This document shows positions 2,171 through 32,856 of a stretch of DNA of 64,000 nt, piece after piece. The translations under genes were made by a program, and so were the position numbers. This stretch comes from a virus: the IMG/VR virus record IMGVR_UViG_3300047476_000928, positions 1-64,000 of that record, one strand, 5' to 3'. The notes beneath the pieces are model-generated. The model did no database searches and was not told the origin of the DNA. It saw nothing but the letters and a program-made list of their open reading frames with translations. Every line of letters begins with the position of its first letter. The first letter of the stretch is position 1.

Positions 2171-5100
2171 ATGGCGAAGGTAACTCTCAGAGCATCAGGA
2201 GGTTTGAACGTAGACGTAAGCCCGAATAATTTACAAGAAGGGGATTATGTTGATGCTTCGAATATTATATTTGATACAGGTAAAGATGGTGGAGCTGGAG
2301 CTGTTCGTATGCTTGAGTCTATTAAGACAACAGGCATATCATTTACTGAGACTGTAGTTAGGAGCTTTCAAAATTATGATGGCAAGATATATGTATTAGT
2401 AAATGGCGGCACAACTGCTTCTATTTATGAGCTACCAAATCCTGTTTCATCTACTACTAAGACATTAGTTCTTACATATACACATGGAATCACAACTGAT
2501 TTCGTGCCAGATATTAAAGTAATCGGCACTACAATAGTGTGGAACTATGCAGAGTCTGGAACTATCCTTTCTTACCCACTCACAAGAGGTTATGGTACAA
2601 CACCTACATTAGACGACTTAAAGATTCAAAAGAAGACGCCTAATAATGTTGTATCTATTGTTAAGAGCACAACAGGAACTGTTAGTGGATTTTTAGAGGC
2701 AAATGACTTTCAATTTGCATCTCGCTATCAATATGATTCAGGCGAGTTTTCTGTGCTATCTAATTACTCTCAAATGTACAAAGGAGAGAAAGGTACGACA
2801 GCATACACGTTTACATTTAATTTCACGGGAGCTCCAACTTATGTTTCTACGTTAGAAACTTATGTGCGAATCGGTAGCAATGGTACTTGGCGCAGAATGG
2901 ATACTCGTGCCAAGAATGACACTACAGCATTAAATTGGACTGGAGATATATACGAGAGCTTAGATTCACTATCATCGGCAAAACCATTTGATGCGGTACC
3001 ATTAAATGCTGCGCATATTGAAATCGCACAAAACAGAATCTTCTTAGCTAATATCAAAGACGATTACGATATTGATAAGGTTAACACTGTAGATAAGATT
3101 ACAATTTCAGTAGCAAGTGGCAATGGGTATGAATTAGGCTCAGGAGACTATACAAGTTATTTAGGAGCTTCAAAAGATTCTACTAGCTCAGAAACAGGTA
3201 CATATTATAAGCCTTTTGCAAACAACTCTACATACGGCATTGGTATTGCATTCTATGATGATGCATTAAAAACCCGCGGAGTAGAAAAGTATCAGAAGTT
3301 CACTACTGGCAAGTTTGCTTATCCTATTTTACCTACAATCAATATTCAGTTAGCTTCTGGATGGGTAGCCCCATCTTGGGCAAAGTATGCACAACTAGTA
3401 TATACTAAGAATATATCTAAATCTTATGTTTACGAAGGATTTGCAAGTAGCATATTCTTTGAGATGAACGATAAGACTATTGCTCAAAGTTTAACAAAGG
3501 ACCAACTCAAAGATGTTAACTATTTGGTAGTTGACCTTATGGGTATGTTTAAGGCTGGTAAATTGTACACGTTTGTAGAAAACGACAAAATATCAATTAA
3601 CACCCCTAACGGTGTATTAGATTTAAACGTATCTCAGCAATTCAACAACTTTGTGTACTGCAAGTATTCTGGAGGCGAGATGACTAATCCATTGGTTCCC
3701 AATCCAAGTTTATTGTATTTCGAGATTTACTCTCCTAAAGCAGAAACAGAGGAAGAATCTTTGTTATTCTATGAATATGGTAGCTTAATGCCAATTGCAG
3801 GTTGGACCGCATCTTCTACTATTGCAGTATCTGGAGGGGGTACTATTAATACAAATAAGCTTATTGGAGATATGGTGTTTAGTAAGATAAGTGTACCCAC
3901 TTATTCTACATCGCCATTTATCATTAGCTTAGTTAAAGATTCAGCAGGTACAATCTTAGAAGATGTCGTAGTAGCAAACGATTGCGCAATGACATCTGAA
4001 ACACTTACTGCATATTATAGCTCTTCGAGTAATACTAAGTTTAATCAAAAGTCAGAATTATCCCCTACGTTTAGTAGCACATTTGCAACAAACGACGATT
4101 CAACAGGAGCTGTTGTTGACGGAAATTCTGCTATTAAATTCAGTGGTTCATTTGAGGCTGGCTTACAAGAGGTTGGAGTTAATAAGATTACATTAATGTT
4201 TGACCTACAGGTTACTGAGAACATTACATTACTATCAGTACCTAATCCAAACGCAAGTGTTAATTATAGAGTTTACGCGCAAGTATATAAGGTTCCATTT
4301 GATTTTGCTGCTAATACATATTTAAAGGCAGCTAAATTTGGCTCAGAGTATTTATGTATTGATAAGTATGTTCGCTCTTTTGGAACTCCAGCAACAGTTA
4401 CATACACTGTTGACCCGTATTACATTGAGTTATCATCTCAAGCTAATATCAATCCAAAGGATAAATTTTATATTGTACTGCGCTTAGAGACGGCTGTAAC
4501 AGGAGATGTTCAGACATCTAACATTACAGTAGCTAAAAGAGCCGCCGGCAGTTACGGGGTTTCATTTAGGTTTGTTGGCGATAAGCTTCCTGTTAAAGAG
4601 AAGACTATCTACAATCCAGATACCAAGATGAATACTACCGATTCTAAGTTTATAATTCGGAGTATATCTAACGCCACTGCAAATCAGCAATGGAACACAT
4701 CTGCCGGCAAAGCATCACTTAAATCAATAGATACTGTATCTGCTAGAAGAACAAACGCTATACGATATTCTGGTAGCTACATTGCTGGTACAAAGGTAAA
4801 CTCAATAAACTCATTCTTTGCGCTAGACAGTAACGAAGTACCTATTGAGAACGGAGAGATTGTATCACTACAAAGAGCTTCAAGACTACAAGGAAACGGA
4901 GCAATGTTGTTGGCTTTATGTAAGCGTGAAACGTCTTATGTGTTCTTGGGAGAACAACAATTGACTCAAGGTAATAACGCATCAATACGAGCTCTTACCG
5001 CTAACATGATTGGTACAATCCGTAATATGGGTTCTAATCTAGGATTACAAGATAAGATATCTGTAATGAATTACAAGGGTACAATCTGGTGGTGGGATGA

Positions 5101-28348: not shown

Positions 28349-28531
28349 TTATCGTTTAAATAAAGCTGGTTGTTTTTCTTCTGGGAAATGTCTATAACCT
28401 TTTAAGTCATAGGTAATGTATTGACCATTTCTAAATTCAACTATTATATGGTTTTCTAAATAATCTATTACTCCATTACCATATCTTTCGTCATAAACTC
28501 TATCACCTCTTCTAAATGTTATATCAGCCAT
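28349..28531 (-). CDS. Small SH3-like barrel protein
   Basis: 60 residues: RRGDRVYDERYGNGVIDYLENHIIVEFRNGQ, a five-strand pattern like the small SH3/KOW-type barrels (CarD or UvrD C-terminal-like) that contact nucleic acid or polymerase. The fold assignment is from pattern only; the partner is unknown. Confidence 0.6.
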   Translation of the reverse strand: MADITFRRGDRVYDERYGNGVIDYLENHIIVEFRNGQYITYDLKGYRHFPEEKQPALFKR

Positions 28532-30353: not shown

Positions 30354-31793
30354 TTAAAATGGCTGTATTGATACACCTGCATCAAAGTCAACCTTTATCT
30401 TATTAATTTGCGAATCTTGGTAGGTTATTCCACTCTCAACAAATCGAAATAGCTCTGATTCATCGTCCGCAATTCTATTGGTTTTAACATCAACATATCT
30501 TACAATGTCGCCCACATTCCCATCTCTGTTTTTAAGTATCGTGTACTTCAATGTATTGTCCATAGGAGCCACTGCTTGACCGCTTGCTTTTGCATCTACA
30601 TACTTGTAGTAATCATCACGATACAATCCAATTACCACAATAGCATCCTGCTCAATGTTACCTGATGAACGCAAGTCAGACAGCTGTGGCACACGGCTAG
30701 TACGCTTCTCAATATCTCTTGACAGCTGTGATAAGCAGATGATTGGAATACCTAGCTTTCTAGATAACTTCTGCATCTTGTTACTTACAGACGAAACCTG
30801 CGCAAAATCGCTTTGGTCTTTAATCTGAACATCACGGATAAGCTGTAAATAATCTACTACAACCATATCAATCTTGTTCTTTCTGCATTCGCCTGCCAAT
30901 AGCATTGACAAGTAATTAACATCTCTGTTATCTGAATCGTAAAAGAACAAAGGCAACTCTTTTAACATCTTTGCCTTGGACGCTTTAATCTTTTTAACAT
31001 CCTCCTGCGTAATCCGATTTGCTTTTAAATCAGAATAGTTGTACTCGCTAATCTCGCTTGAAATGTATCTGTATAACAGCGATTCCTTCGGCATCTCTAA
31101 TGACAAAAACAAAACCCTCTTACCTGATAAACAAGCGTATTTAGCATGCTCTAATCCTGCAATAGTTTTTCCCATTCCGGGTCTAGCTGCAATAATACTA
31201 ATACCTTCTTGCCACCCGCCTAACGCATAGTTTAGCTTTCTAGAACCTGTGTCAATGCCACTGAATTTCAAATTACCTGCGTTGGTTTCCAGTTGGGCAA
31301 TTACTTTATCGTACACTGACCCAATAGTAGTTACTTCTTCGGATACTGCTTCATCTGAAAGTTTAGCCATGCCATTGTCAAGCGTTTGCATCAAGTCAGA
31401 TACCTCTGCTCCCGCAGTTAGCTTTGATTCAACAGCTAATACCATTTCTGATATATTACGCTTTGTTTCTAGCTCTTTTAACTCGGCGCACACCGCAGGT
31501 AAGTTAAAGGTACGCTTTGGTAGCATCGTTAGGATTCTAGTAGCATCAATGCCAAACTCTGATTCCTTTGATTTAAGCCACCGAAAAACATCGTAACGAT
31601 TGAATGTACCTTTTTCAGCAGAAAGTGTAACACACGCTAAATATGAAGCTCCTAGTAGGTCTTGCGTAAAAGTATCCTTACTGATAATCTTTTTAGCATC
31701 TATAATTGAATGCGGGTGCTCCAAAATGTAGGCGATAACATCTTCTTCTAGTAGGTTATCCATTAACTCCAATCCTTTTCTTTTCTTTACCAT
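30354..31793 (-). CDS. dnaB: DnaB-family replicative helicase
   Basis: 479 residues; an internal ATG at 31763 (MDNLLEEDVIAYIL) is an equally good start. The N-terminal helical domain is followed by the RecA-like core: Walker A ARPGMGKT (203-210), FLSLEMPKESLLYRY, Walker B VVVDYLQLIRD, then LSQLSRDIEKR and SDLRSSGNIEQDAIVV as sensor and arginine-finger regions. A hexamer unwinds DNA at the fork. The start overlaps the stop of the iteron-containing initiator gene by 7 bases, consistent with loading by that protein. It is the only replicative motor seen. Confidence 0.95.
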   Translation of the reverse strand: MVKKRKGLELMDNLLEEDVIAYILEHPHSIIDAKKIISKDTFTQDLLGASYLACVTLSAEKGTFNRYDVFRWLKSKESEFGIDATRILTMLPKRTFNLPAVCAELKELETKRNISEMVLAVESKLTAGAEVSDLMQTLDNGMAKLSDEAVSEEVTTIGSVYDKVIAQLETNAGNLKFSGIDTGSRKLNYALGGWQEGISIIAARPGMGKTIAGLEHAKYACLSGKRVLFLSLEMPKESLLYRYISSEISEYNYSDLKANRITQEDVKKIKASKAKMLKELPLFFYDSDNRDVNYLSMLLAGECRKNKIDMVVVDYLQLIRDVQIKDQSDFAQVSSVSNKMQKLSRKLGIPIICLSQLSRDIEKRTSRVPQLSDLRSSGNIEQDAIVVIGLYRDDYYKYVDAKASGQAVAPMDNTLKYTILKNRDGNVGDIVRYVDVKTNRIADDESELFRFVESGITYQDSQINKIKVDFDAGVSIQPF

Positions 31794-32497
31794 GTGTCGG
31801 GTATGTCTAATTCAAATCCTTTTGTGTCGGCGGGCGCTCCGCCAGTTTCTTTTCTTTTTTCTTCTAGTGGGTTAACGATTACTTCATCTTCCCAAACTTT
31901 ATGCTTCAAATATCTTTCAGGGTCTTTGCGATATACTGCTTCGGGTCTAGCTCTTGTGTAGTATGGTACTGCTATTAGGATTGCATCCTTTTCTGATTCC
32001 TTTAATCTACTCCATTGCTTTCTAGTATTTTCCTTTCCTACCTTCTTTCCGTACAGCTCCCAAAACTCATCAAACCTATCGTCTTTTTTACTACTCTCTT
32101 TATTGCTATTATCTTTATTACTAATATGGGTTAGATTATCCAATGTAGGAAAATCCAAGGTTGGAAAATCCAAGGTTGGATTATCTGATGTAGGGATTTC
32201 TTCTAAAACCTCTAATGGACAGCTAGAAAGCTGATAAGAGTAGATTAAATGCCCCTTGTTATTTCTGCTTTGTGTGCGAGTTAAGTATCCCGCCTTTTCT
32301 AATTCGATAAGCGCCATTCTTATCGCTGTAACCCCCTCCTTTGTTTGTAAACTAATACGCTCTGCACTAAAATCCCAACTCGCAGGTTTCGATTGGATAT
32401 AAGCGTACACTCCCTTTGCTTTAAAGGTTAAATCCTTGTTGTTAAGCAAGTCATTAGGTACTACCCCGAAATTATTCTTAATCGTTACCTTTGCCAT
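31787..32497 (-). CDS. Replication initiator / helicase loader (winged-helix, O-like)
   Basis: 236 residues. VTIKNNFGVVPNDLLNNKDL then FKAKGVYAYIQSKPASWDF (25-45) and TAIRMALIELEKAGYLTRTQ form a winged helix-turn-helix like phage initiators. At about 103-125 the chain carries PTLDF PTLDF PTLDN, encoded by 15-bp DNA repeats that look like iterons. The C-terminal half (FDEFWELYGKKVGKENTRKQW) resembles initiator/loader proteins that contact DnaB. In lambda the O gene likewise holds the origin. It overlaps DnaB and the gene before it. Confidence 0.75.
   Translation of the reverse strand: MAKVTIKNNFGVVPNDLLNNKDLTFKAKGVYAYIQSKPASWDFSAERISLQTKEGVTAIRMALIELEKAGYLTRTQSRNNKGHLIYSYQLSSCPLEVLEEIPTSDNPTLDFPTLDFPTLDNLTHISNKDNSNKESSKKDDRFDEFWELYGKKVGKENTRKQWSRLKESEKDAILIAVPYYTRARPEAVYRKDPERYLKHKVWEDEVIVNPLEEKRKETGGAPADTKGFELDIPDTW
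32140..32194. repeat. Iterons inside the initiator gene, candidate replication origin
   Basis: Units every 15 bp on the plus strand: CCAATGTAGG, CCAAGGTTGG, CCAAGGTTGG and CTGATGTAGG, with A/T-rich 5-bp spacers (AAAAT, AAAAT, ATTAT). The two central decamers are identical and near-palindromic. A flanking AT-rich block (32080-32140) could melt. Location in the initiator gene matches lambda-type origins. Confidence 0.6.
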
Positions 32498-32718
32498 TTT
32501 TGCGCCTCTGTTATATCATTCGATAAAGCAACTATGTTTTCTACCAATGATTCAATATTTTCCATTATAAAGCTGTACCCTTCCATTTCTTCACTGATGC
32601 AAGAAAGCACTCGTGTATATTGGTTAAGCTCCTGCTCCATTTCTCTTTTGATTAGCTTGTTGCAGGCAATGTATGCCTCCAAATGCAACCTAGTCATCTC
32701 ATTAAATTCTTGTGCCAT
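32485..32718 (-). CDS. Hypothetical helical protein, first gene of the replication transcript
   Basis: 77 residues from the ATG at 32718; an upstream in-frame extension to 32793 would cross the structured leader and is unlikely. All helical: MAQEFNEMTRLHLEAYIACN, then EMEQELNQYTRVLSCISEEM, with coiled-coil character. No domain recognised. Its ATG directly follows the U-tract of a leader terminator, so its translation and that of the initiator (13-base overlap) may be controlled by that structure. Confidence 0.6.
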   Translation of the reverse strand: MAQEFNEMTRLHLEAYIACNKLIKREMEQELNQYTRVLSCISEEMEGYSFIMENIESLVENIVALSNDITEAQKWQR

Positions 32719-32818
32719 ATAAAAAATAAACCCCCACATCCGTTGCGAAGATAATGGGGGTAGTTTCAGGGTACTCCTGAATCCTAGTGGCAAGTCCGCA
32801 ACTACCTGCCACTAGGTA
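32719..32818 (-). ncRNA. Candidate structured leader RNA / attenuator or small RNA
   Basis: A -33/-7 promoter at 32826-32856 predicts a start near 32818. The transcript would hold three hairpins in order: CCTAGTGGCA/TGCCACTAGG (32783-32816), TTCAGG/CCTGAA (32765-32781) and ACCCCCA/TGGGGGT (32730-32761), the last followed by TTTATTTTTTAT and then the ATG at 32718. The loop of hairpin 1 (GGTAGTTGCGGA) can pair with AACTACC just 5' of hairpin 3 and with TTCGCAAC in its loop. I infer an attenuator or small RNA; no known family is recognised. Confidence 0.6.
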
Positions 32819-32825
32819 TGAACAT

Positions 32826-32856
32826 CAAAAGTACAAACAATTTGTTTATTTAGCAA
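32826..32856 (-). promoter_or_regulatory. Bacteroidota promoter of the leader RNA / replication transcript
   Basis: Minus strand TTGC at -33 (32853-32856), 19-nt spacer, TACTTTTG at -7 (32826-32833). The plus-strand promoter at 41611-41641 has the same TTGC-N19 architecture. The predicted start falls 1-2 bases before hairpin 1 of the leader RNA. Confidence 0.7.

Follow-up and report, generated by a model that had tools for sequence, protein, structure and literature searches.

Directly upstream of the replication operon in a phage genome we find a leader in which the loop of the first of three hairpins is complementary to the loop of an intrinsic terminator, and more than 150 other DNA records from uncultured phages carry versions of this leader in which both loops change together. 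The architecture, the covariation, the position and the promoter consensus can all be read from the sequences, and they suggest that phage replication is probably controlled here by an RNA switch that has not been described before. It is widespread and would stand at a decision point for phage DNA replication. No Rfam family matches it, and we found no description of it in the full-text literature, in a coverage outside which most subscription journals lie.

Results

Layout of the leader

On the minus strand of the window, by which we mean the whole stretch of 64,000 nucleotides analysed, a promoter of the Bacteroidota type precedes three hairpins, the last of them an intrinsic terminator, and the ATG of the replication operon follows, this interval running from 32833 to 32716 (Table 1). 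A sequence-only reading of this region had called the three hairpins perfect, which slightly overstates them, as there is a G-U pair in hairpin 1, and the stem of the terminator includes a U-G pair and one base left unpaired. Its observations that the U-tract of the terminator reaches the ATG of the first operon gene, and that an initiator and a DnaB helicase lie downstream, agree with the positions and gene assignments obtained here. The leader folds with -50.4 kcal/mol compared to -29.65 +/- 3.56 for shuffled sequences (z = -5.8; 0 of 200 shuffles). A promoter of its own, a structured leader and an intrinsic terminator before the first gene, the sequence features expected of an attenuator leader, are all present as judged by sequence consensus. 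The 77-residue product of the first gene is without a database match, and a search for close relatives through this gene, a neighbouring gene of 91 residues and the exact hairpin found none.

Table 1. Predicted features of the leader and of the genes that follow it, in window coordinates
Feature	Position	Strand	Details
Promoter	32826..32856	-	TTGC (32856-32853), 19-nt spacer, TACTTTTG (32833-32826)
Hairpin 1, 34 nt	32783..32816	-	apical loop with kissing strand GTTGCGG (32802-32796)
Hairpin 2	32765..32781	-	TTCAGG-AGTAC-CCTGAA
Hairpin 3, intrinsic terminator stem-loop	32730..32761	-	ACCCCCAT...GTGGGGGT; loop TCGCAAC (32748-32742)
Terminator U-tract	32721..32730	-	TTTATTTTTT
First operon gene, 77-aa protein	32485..32718	-	ATG 32718-32716; overlaps initiator gene
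Replication initiator	31787..32497	-	best match phrog_270 (replication initiation protein)
DnaB-type replicative helicase	30354..31793	-	after initiator

Promoters of the Flavobacterium/Bacteroidota type have the consensus TTTG/TANNTTTG, with the G of TANNTTTG at -5 (PMC6847099). The promoter proposed earlier (TTGC-N19-TACTTTTG) stands, and its -7 element fits the TANNTTTG consensus, but under the -5 rule (PMC6847099) its start at 32818 shifts to a predicted start near 32821, leaving about 5 nt up to hairpin 1. Of 118 relatives among the matches listed, 78 have TANNTTTG at a distance of 12-15 nt 5' of the hairpin, and TAHHTTTG or a sequence close to it is present in 115 of 116; the promoter type points to Bacteroidota as the putative hosts of the leader-bearing phages.

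Two partners had been proposed for the loop of hairpin 1. With the terminator loop it forms six Watson-Crick pairs and one G-U pair (GTTGCGG with TCGCAAC), a complementarity that is not significant when judged on the window's own sequence (p about 0.15) and that is supported by the covariation in the family. The second pairing, GGTAGTT with AACTACC, is real in the window (seven Watson-Crick pairs) but private to it; the corresponding segments form just 3-4 bp in 58 of 58 leaders among the matches listed, and we reject it as a family feature.

Covariation of the two loops

Searching with the window's initiator gave 31 viral contigs, and a search with an initiator alignment gave 80 matches, overlapping partly with those of the single-sequence query. 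In many of these relatives the stretch directly 5' of the initiator start has a promoter of the Bacteroidota type followed by one hairpin, a second, short one and a terminator, and the loop sequences differ between contigs yet are complementary inside each contig. Two scaffolds dominate: in type A the hairpin-1 loop is purine-rich (GTGAGAG, for example, which pairs with CTCTCAC), and in type B it is pyrimidine-rich (e.g. GTTCTCAC with GTGAGAAC). Leaders outside these two types have loop pairs of their own, such as TGAGGGA/TCCCTCA (L004), GTAGCGG/CCGCTAC (L080), TGGAACC/GGTTCCA (L061) and CCACCATT/AATGGTGG (L118, from a genome of Cruoricaptor ignavus). Among the matches listed, a short hairpin of at least 4 bp is possible at the place of hairpin 2 in 56 of 58 type A leaders, and in these 58 a linker of 16-21 nt separates hairpin 1 from hairpin 3. 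As a separate observation, the GTGAGAG-like hairpin-1 loops of type A (L130-L249) resemble the GTGAGAAC-like terminator loops of type B (L250-L283), and the converse likeness is also seen, i.e. the two scaffolds use mirrored strands.

We scanned IMG/VR with a pattern describing hairpin 1 of type A only, the terminator being absent from it, and obtained at least 120 matches. In 118 of the 120 listed, 7-8 nt of the terminator loop are a perfect complement of the hairpin-1 loop of the same match, and in those 118 the terminator sits just 5' of a start codon; the remaining two, where the complementarity is at most 5 nt, look like chance matches. A mechanical scan of 519 kb for a hairpin and a terminator with seven Watson-Crick pairs between their loops gave 44 matches, and in 42 of these an initiator gene follows directly; the reversed sequences used as a control gave 2.

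Positions 15, 16, 20 and 21 of the type A pattern are fixed by the search, and just the middle three kissing pairs are free. Over 58 distinct leaders among the matches listed, these are AU 29, GC 22, CG 6 and UA 1 at columns 17-75, GC 38 and AU 20 at columns 18-74, and GC 52 and UA 6 at columns 19-73, which amounts to 4, 2 and 2 pair types with zero mismatches. The type A covariation score is 0.356, compared to 0.119 when shuffled and at most 0.094 when slid. A similar picture holds for 20 type B leaders, where the kissing helix is 100% paired with double changes in 6 of 8 pairs. A leader tree built without the kissing columns, which has few columns and many unresolved forks, gives at least 9 coupled allele changes, with 7 of 7 loop alleles matched. 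The window and some relatives were mis-assigned by detectors optimising over every possible hairpin; our conclusions rest on the pair counts and on two scans, the one with the pattern and the mechanical one with its reversed control.

Covariation in related phages, which the sequence-only reading had named as a check, is thus found for the pairing of the hairpin-1 loop with the terminator loop. Arms diverging without compensation were not seen in the relatives, and the position before the initiator operon, noted earlier for the window, is conserved in them.

The type A model can be aligned to the whole of the window leader, with hairpin 1 again 34 nt long and its kissing strand in the same register, and the leader scores 17.7 bits with filters off; with default filters the model does not find it. 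All the features of type A (a first hairpin of 34 nt, a short second one, the terminator and a 7-nt pairing in fixed register) are found in it, though at this weak score, and on the strength of the alignment we regard it as a diverged, remote member of the kissing-loop family. The leader in L004 follows the plan of the window, with three hairpins, 7-bp complementary loops, a small gene and then the initiator, and we take it, from this arrangement, for another case of the plan in which a small gene stands in between. The initiator closest to that of the window (54%) belongs to L003, where a promoter and a terminator are present (3900-4000) and no hairpin 1 is evident.

Genomic context and distribution

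In the relatives among the matches listed, the distance from the first TTTT of the U-tract to the start codon is mostly 6-15 nt. An initiator usually stands first or second among the genes after the leader, with at least three initiator families in all; the kinds found are the family of the window, phrog_2562, the KYYLHD type (a weak phrog_2562 match) and phrog_6251/1701. The interval between leader and initiator sometimes holds small accessory genes or HNH endonucleases, and a small gene stands there both in the window (the 77-aa gene) and in L004. Another gene of the window, MADITFRRGDRVYDERYGNG (28349-28531, minus strand), is related to a small accessory gene directly behind the leader in L133 (6884-7069) and L177. 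The initiators at L130:8087-8800, L131:8325-9029 and L160:1397-2047 have unlike N-terminal domains and a common C-terminal tail (GTSAARMEALRKW-like), and the gene following them is also common (LVGLRGxNxPTxEEK); one reading of this side observation is a modular initiator whose N-terminal domain may be swapped.

Searches of 19 whole records found exactly one leader, A or B and never both, in 18. The exception is a 59-kb contig (G398) with two type A leaders (L286 and L287) 31 kb apart before different initiators; the loop allele is identical in both replication modules, and the contig is possibly a chimeric assembly.

Leaders with other promoter types are found before initiators of the same family (L289, L290, L292, L293 and L288), and these contain segments of 8-9 nt complementary to the interior of the terminator. 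For L087, L091/L293, L292, L289 and L290 this complementarity of 8-9 nt has p values of 0.002-0.06, with the terminator of L290 mis-assigned by the script, and is suggestive only of possible convergent attenuators.

Comparing the window region and the type A and B leaders to INPHARED with blastn gave no match among named phages. In the Bacteroides and Parabacteroides phages VA7, PDS1 and C1_85S2P the initiator is directly behind the upstream genes, with no space for such a leader. The type A model found nothing in 395 Bacteroidota genomes, a set without a positive-control genome, so that this result shows little. We thus found no cultured phage with a type A or B leader in INPHARED, or with a type A leader in the 395 genomes.

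Discussion

How the leader might act

We consider it fairly likely that the leader is a transcriptional attenuator of the initiator operon in which the kissing loop sets termination. The interpretation as an attenuator or small RNA, already made in the sequence-only reading, gains support from the covariation and the conserved position before the initiator; from these we infer the regulation itself, namely that the leader is transcribed, that kissing alters termination, and the direction of this effect. The transcript would begin at the base of hairpin 1; this hairpin and hairpin 2 would be the first to fold, and the terminator hairpin would form just before the operon start codon; a terminated transcript would be a structured RNA of about 100 nt and a read-through transcript the replication mRNA. 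As the space from the terminator to the ATG could not accommodate a promoter, initiator synthesis from the leader promoter would need read-through, and as hairpin 1 pairs with the terminator's own loop, an effect on termination would be the simplest function, with a 7-8 bp kissing helix between the two loops setting how often the terminator is effective. In the direction that we prefer, kissing at an early stage would delay or strain the terminator and thereby allow read-through. This is suggested by geometry, where an estimate, as distinct from a model, has two 11-12 bp stems and a 7-bp kissing helix spanning roughly 85-90 angstrom, compared to a linker of 16-21 nt that also holds hairpin 2. 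The ends of the linker would be too far apart without an opening of hairpin 2 or of the feet of the stems, which would favour either a switch, with kissing set against the full terminator plus hairpin 2, or kissing between molecules.

We put this cis-acting attenuator first and a trans-acting RNA for replication control or immunity second, the latter being possible and distinctly less probable. The terminated RNA of about 100 nt would then accumulate with genome copy number and kiss nascent leaders of the same allele; more termination would turn initiator synthesis off, as in plasmid copy control but with the RNA encoded on the same strand, and the loop alleles would be incompatibility or superinfection-immunity types. 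The strained look of the intramolecular kiss fits such a role, as does the presence of one leader per record in 18 of 19. Near-identical initiators also carry different alleles and even different scaffolds: those of L132 (A, GTCGGAG) and L260 (B, CTTCTCAC) are 98.7% identical, and the N-terminal 150 residues are identical in L165 and L157/L217, and in L238 and L275, with alleles or scaffolds differing. Over four initiator trees there are at least 12, 15, 7 and 6 allele changes (at least 40 in total), with 10 swaps between A and B in one tree. However, ordinary phage mosaicism also swaps modules, and mosaicism with compensated drift would give the same allele pattern. Cognate loop duplexes average -11.3 kcal/mol compared to -2.2 for non-cognate ones, though some non-cognate pairs are strong in isolation (to -11.8), and two loops in one molecule could sequester each other. 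By analogy with plasmid incompatibility, allele reassortment together with cognate strength is the pattern expected of specificity determinants. That a self-complementary phage RNA made from the same strand shuts off the initiators of co-infecting or sibling phages by allele-specific kissing in trans is a doubtful proposal at present; if it were true, three variable loop positions would sort phages into incompatibility groups like those of plasmids. In any case, matched alleles that reassort among near-identical initiators raise a testable question, namely whether there is plasmid-like RNA copy control or incompatibility in dsDNA phages.

Two mutually complementary loops per RNA and conserved scaffolds would also suit an oligomerising structural RNA similar to the pRNA of phi29, whose loops would link molecules hand in hand and for which the place before the initiator would be secondary. 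One of the partners is the terminator itself, the placement before the initiator operon is near-universal and a packaging context was not seen, all of which make this very improbable. The leader adjoins the initiator gene and DnaB and might instead act as DNA, with cruciforms or single-stranded hairpins serving as an origin or initiator-binding site, though we give this equally little weight: the same leaders stand before different initiator families, the conserved promoter and U-tract belong to one strand, the stems tolerate G-U pairs, and the GC skew has no switch at 32.7 kb. An ordinary promoter and terminator with chance loop complementarity, which p of about 0.15 would allow for the window alone, is the least credible reading and is refuted for the family by the complementary loops in 118 of 120 listed matches, the 7 of 7 matched alleles and the 44 matches against 2 in reversed sequences.

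Comparison with known systems

The pRNA of phi29 is a phage RNA with two complementary loops per molecule. It serves a packaging motor, in which the loops link molecules, whereas in the leader described here one loop belongs to a terminator before replication genes. The Bacillus-plasmid (RF01691) and lactis-plasmid (RF01742) RNA motifs are associated with plasmid replication genes. Both are in a list of 104 candidate RNAs (PMC2864571) and differ from the phage leader, which is without an Rfam match, in hosts and structures.

By analogy, the closest systems in logic are the pT181/pIP501 attenuators and the CI RNA of P4. In the repC and repR leaders of pT181 and pIP501 a terminator-like stem-loop lies just 5' of the start codon and acts in copy-number control, and in pT181 an upstream segment, the pre-emptor, can pair with part of the terminator (PMC5703833). 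The likeness is that of a leader before an initiator gene with an upstream segment able to pair with the terminator. The trans signal of these plasmids is a counter-transcribed antisense RNA, whereas in the phage leader two hairpin loops encoded on one strand pair with each other, and the leader is carried by phages, under a promoter of the Bacteroidota type, instead of by plasmids. The CI RNA of P4 terminates transcription of the P4 replication genes and has been discussed together with IsrK of Gifsy-1 (PMC4825925). Here the likeness to CI RNA/c4 (RF01695) and IsrK lies in mutually complementary segments of a phage transcript and in premature termination ahead of replication or regulatory genes (PMC4825925), although the RF01695 covariance model (c4 antisense RNA) does not match the leader. 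P4 CI RNA arises by processing of the transcript and has seqA and seqC as its pairing partners, whereas in the phage leader it is a hairpin loop that pairs with the terminator's own loop.
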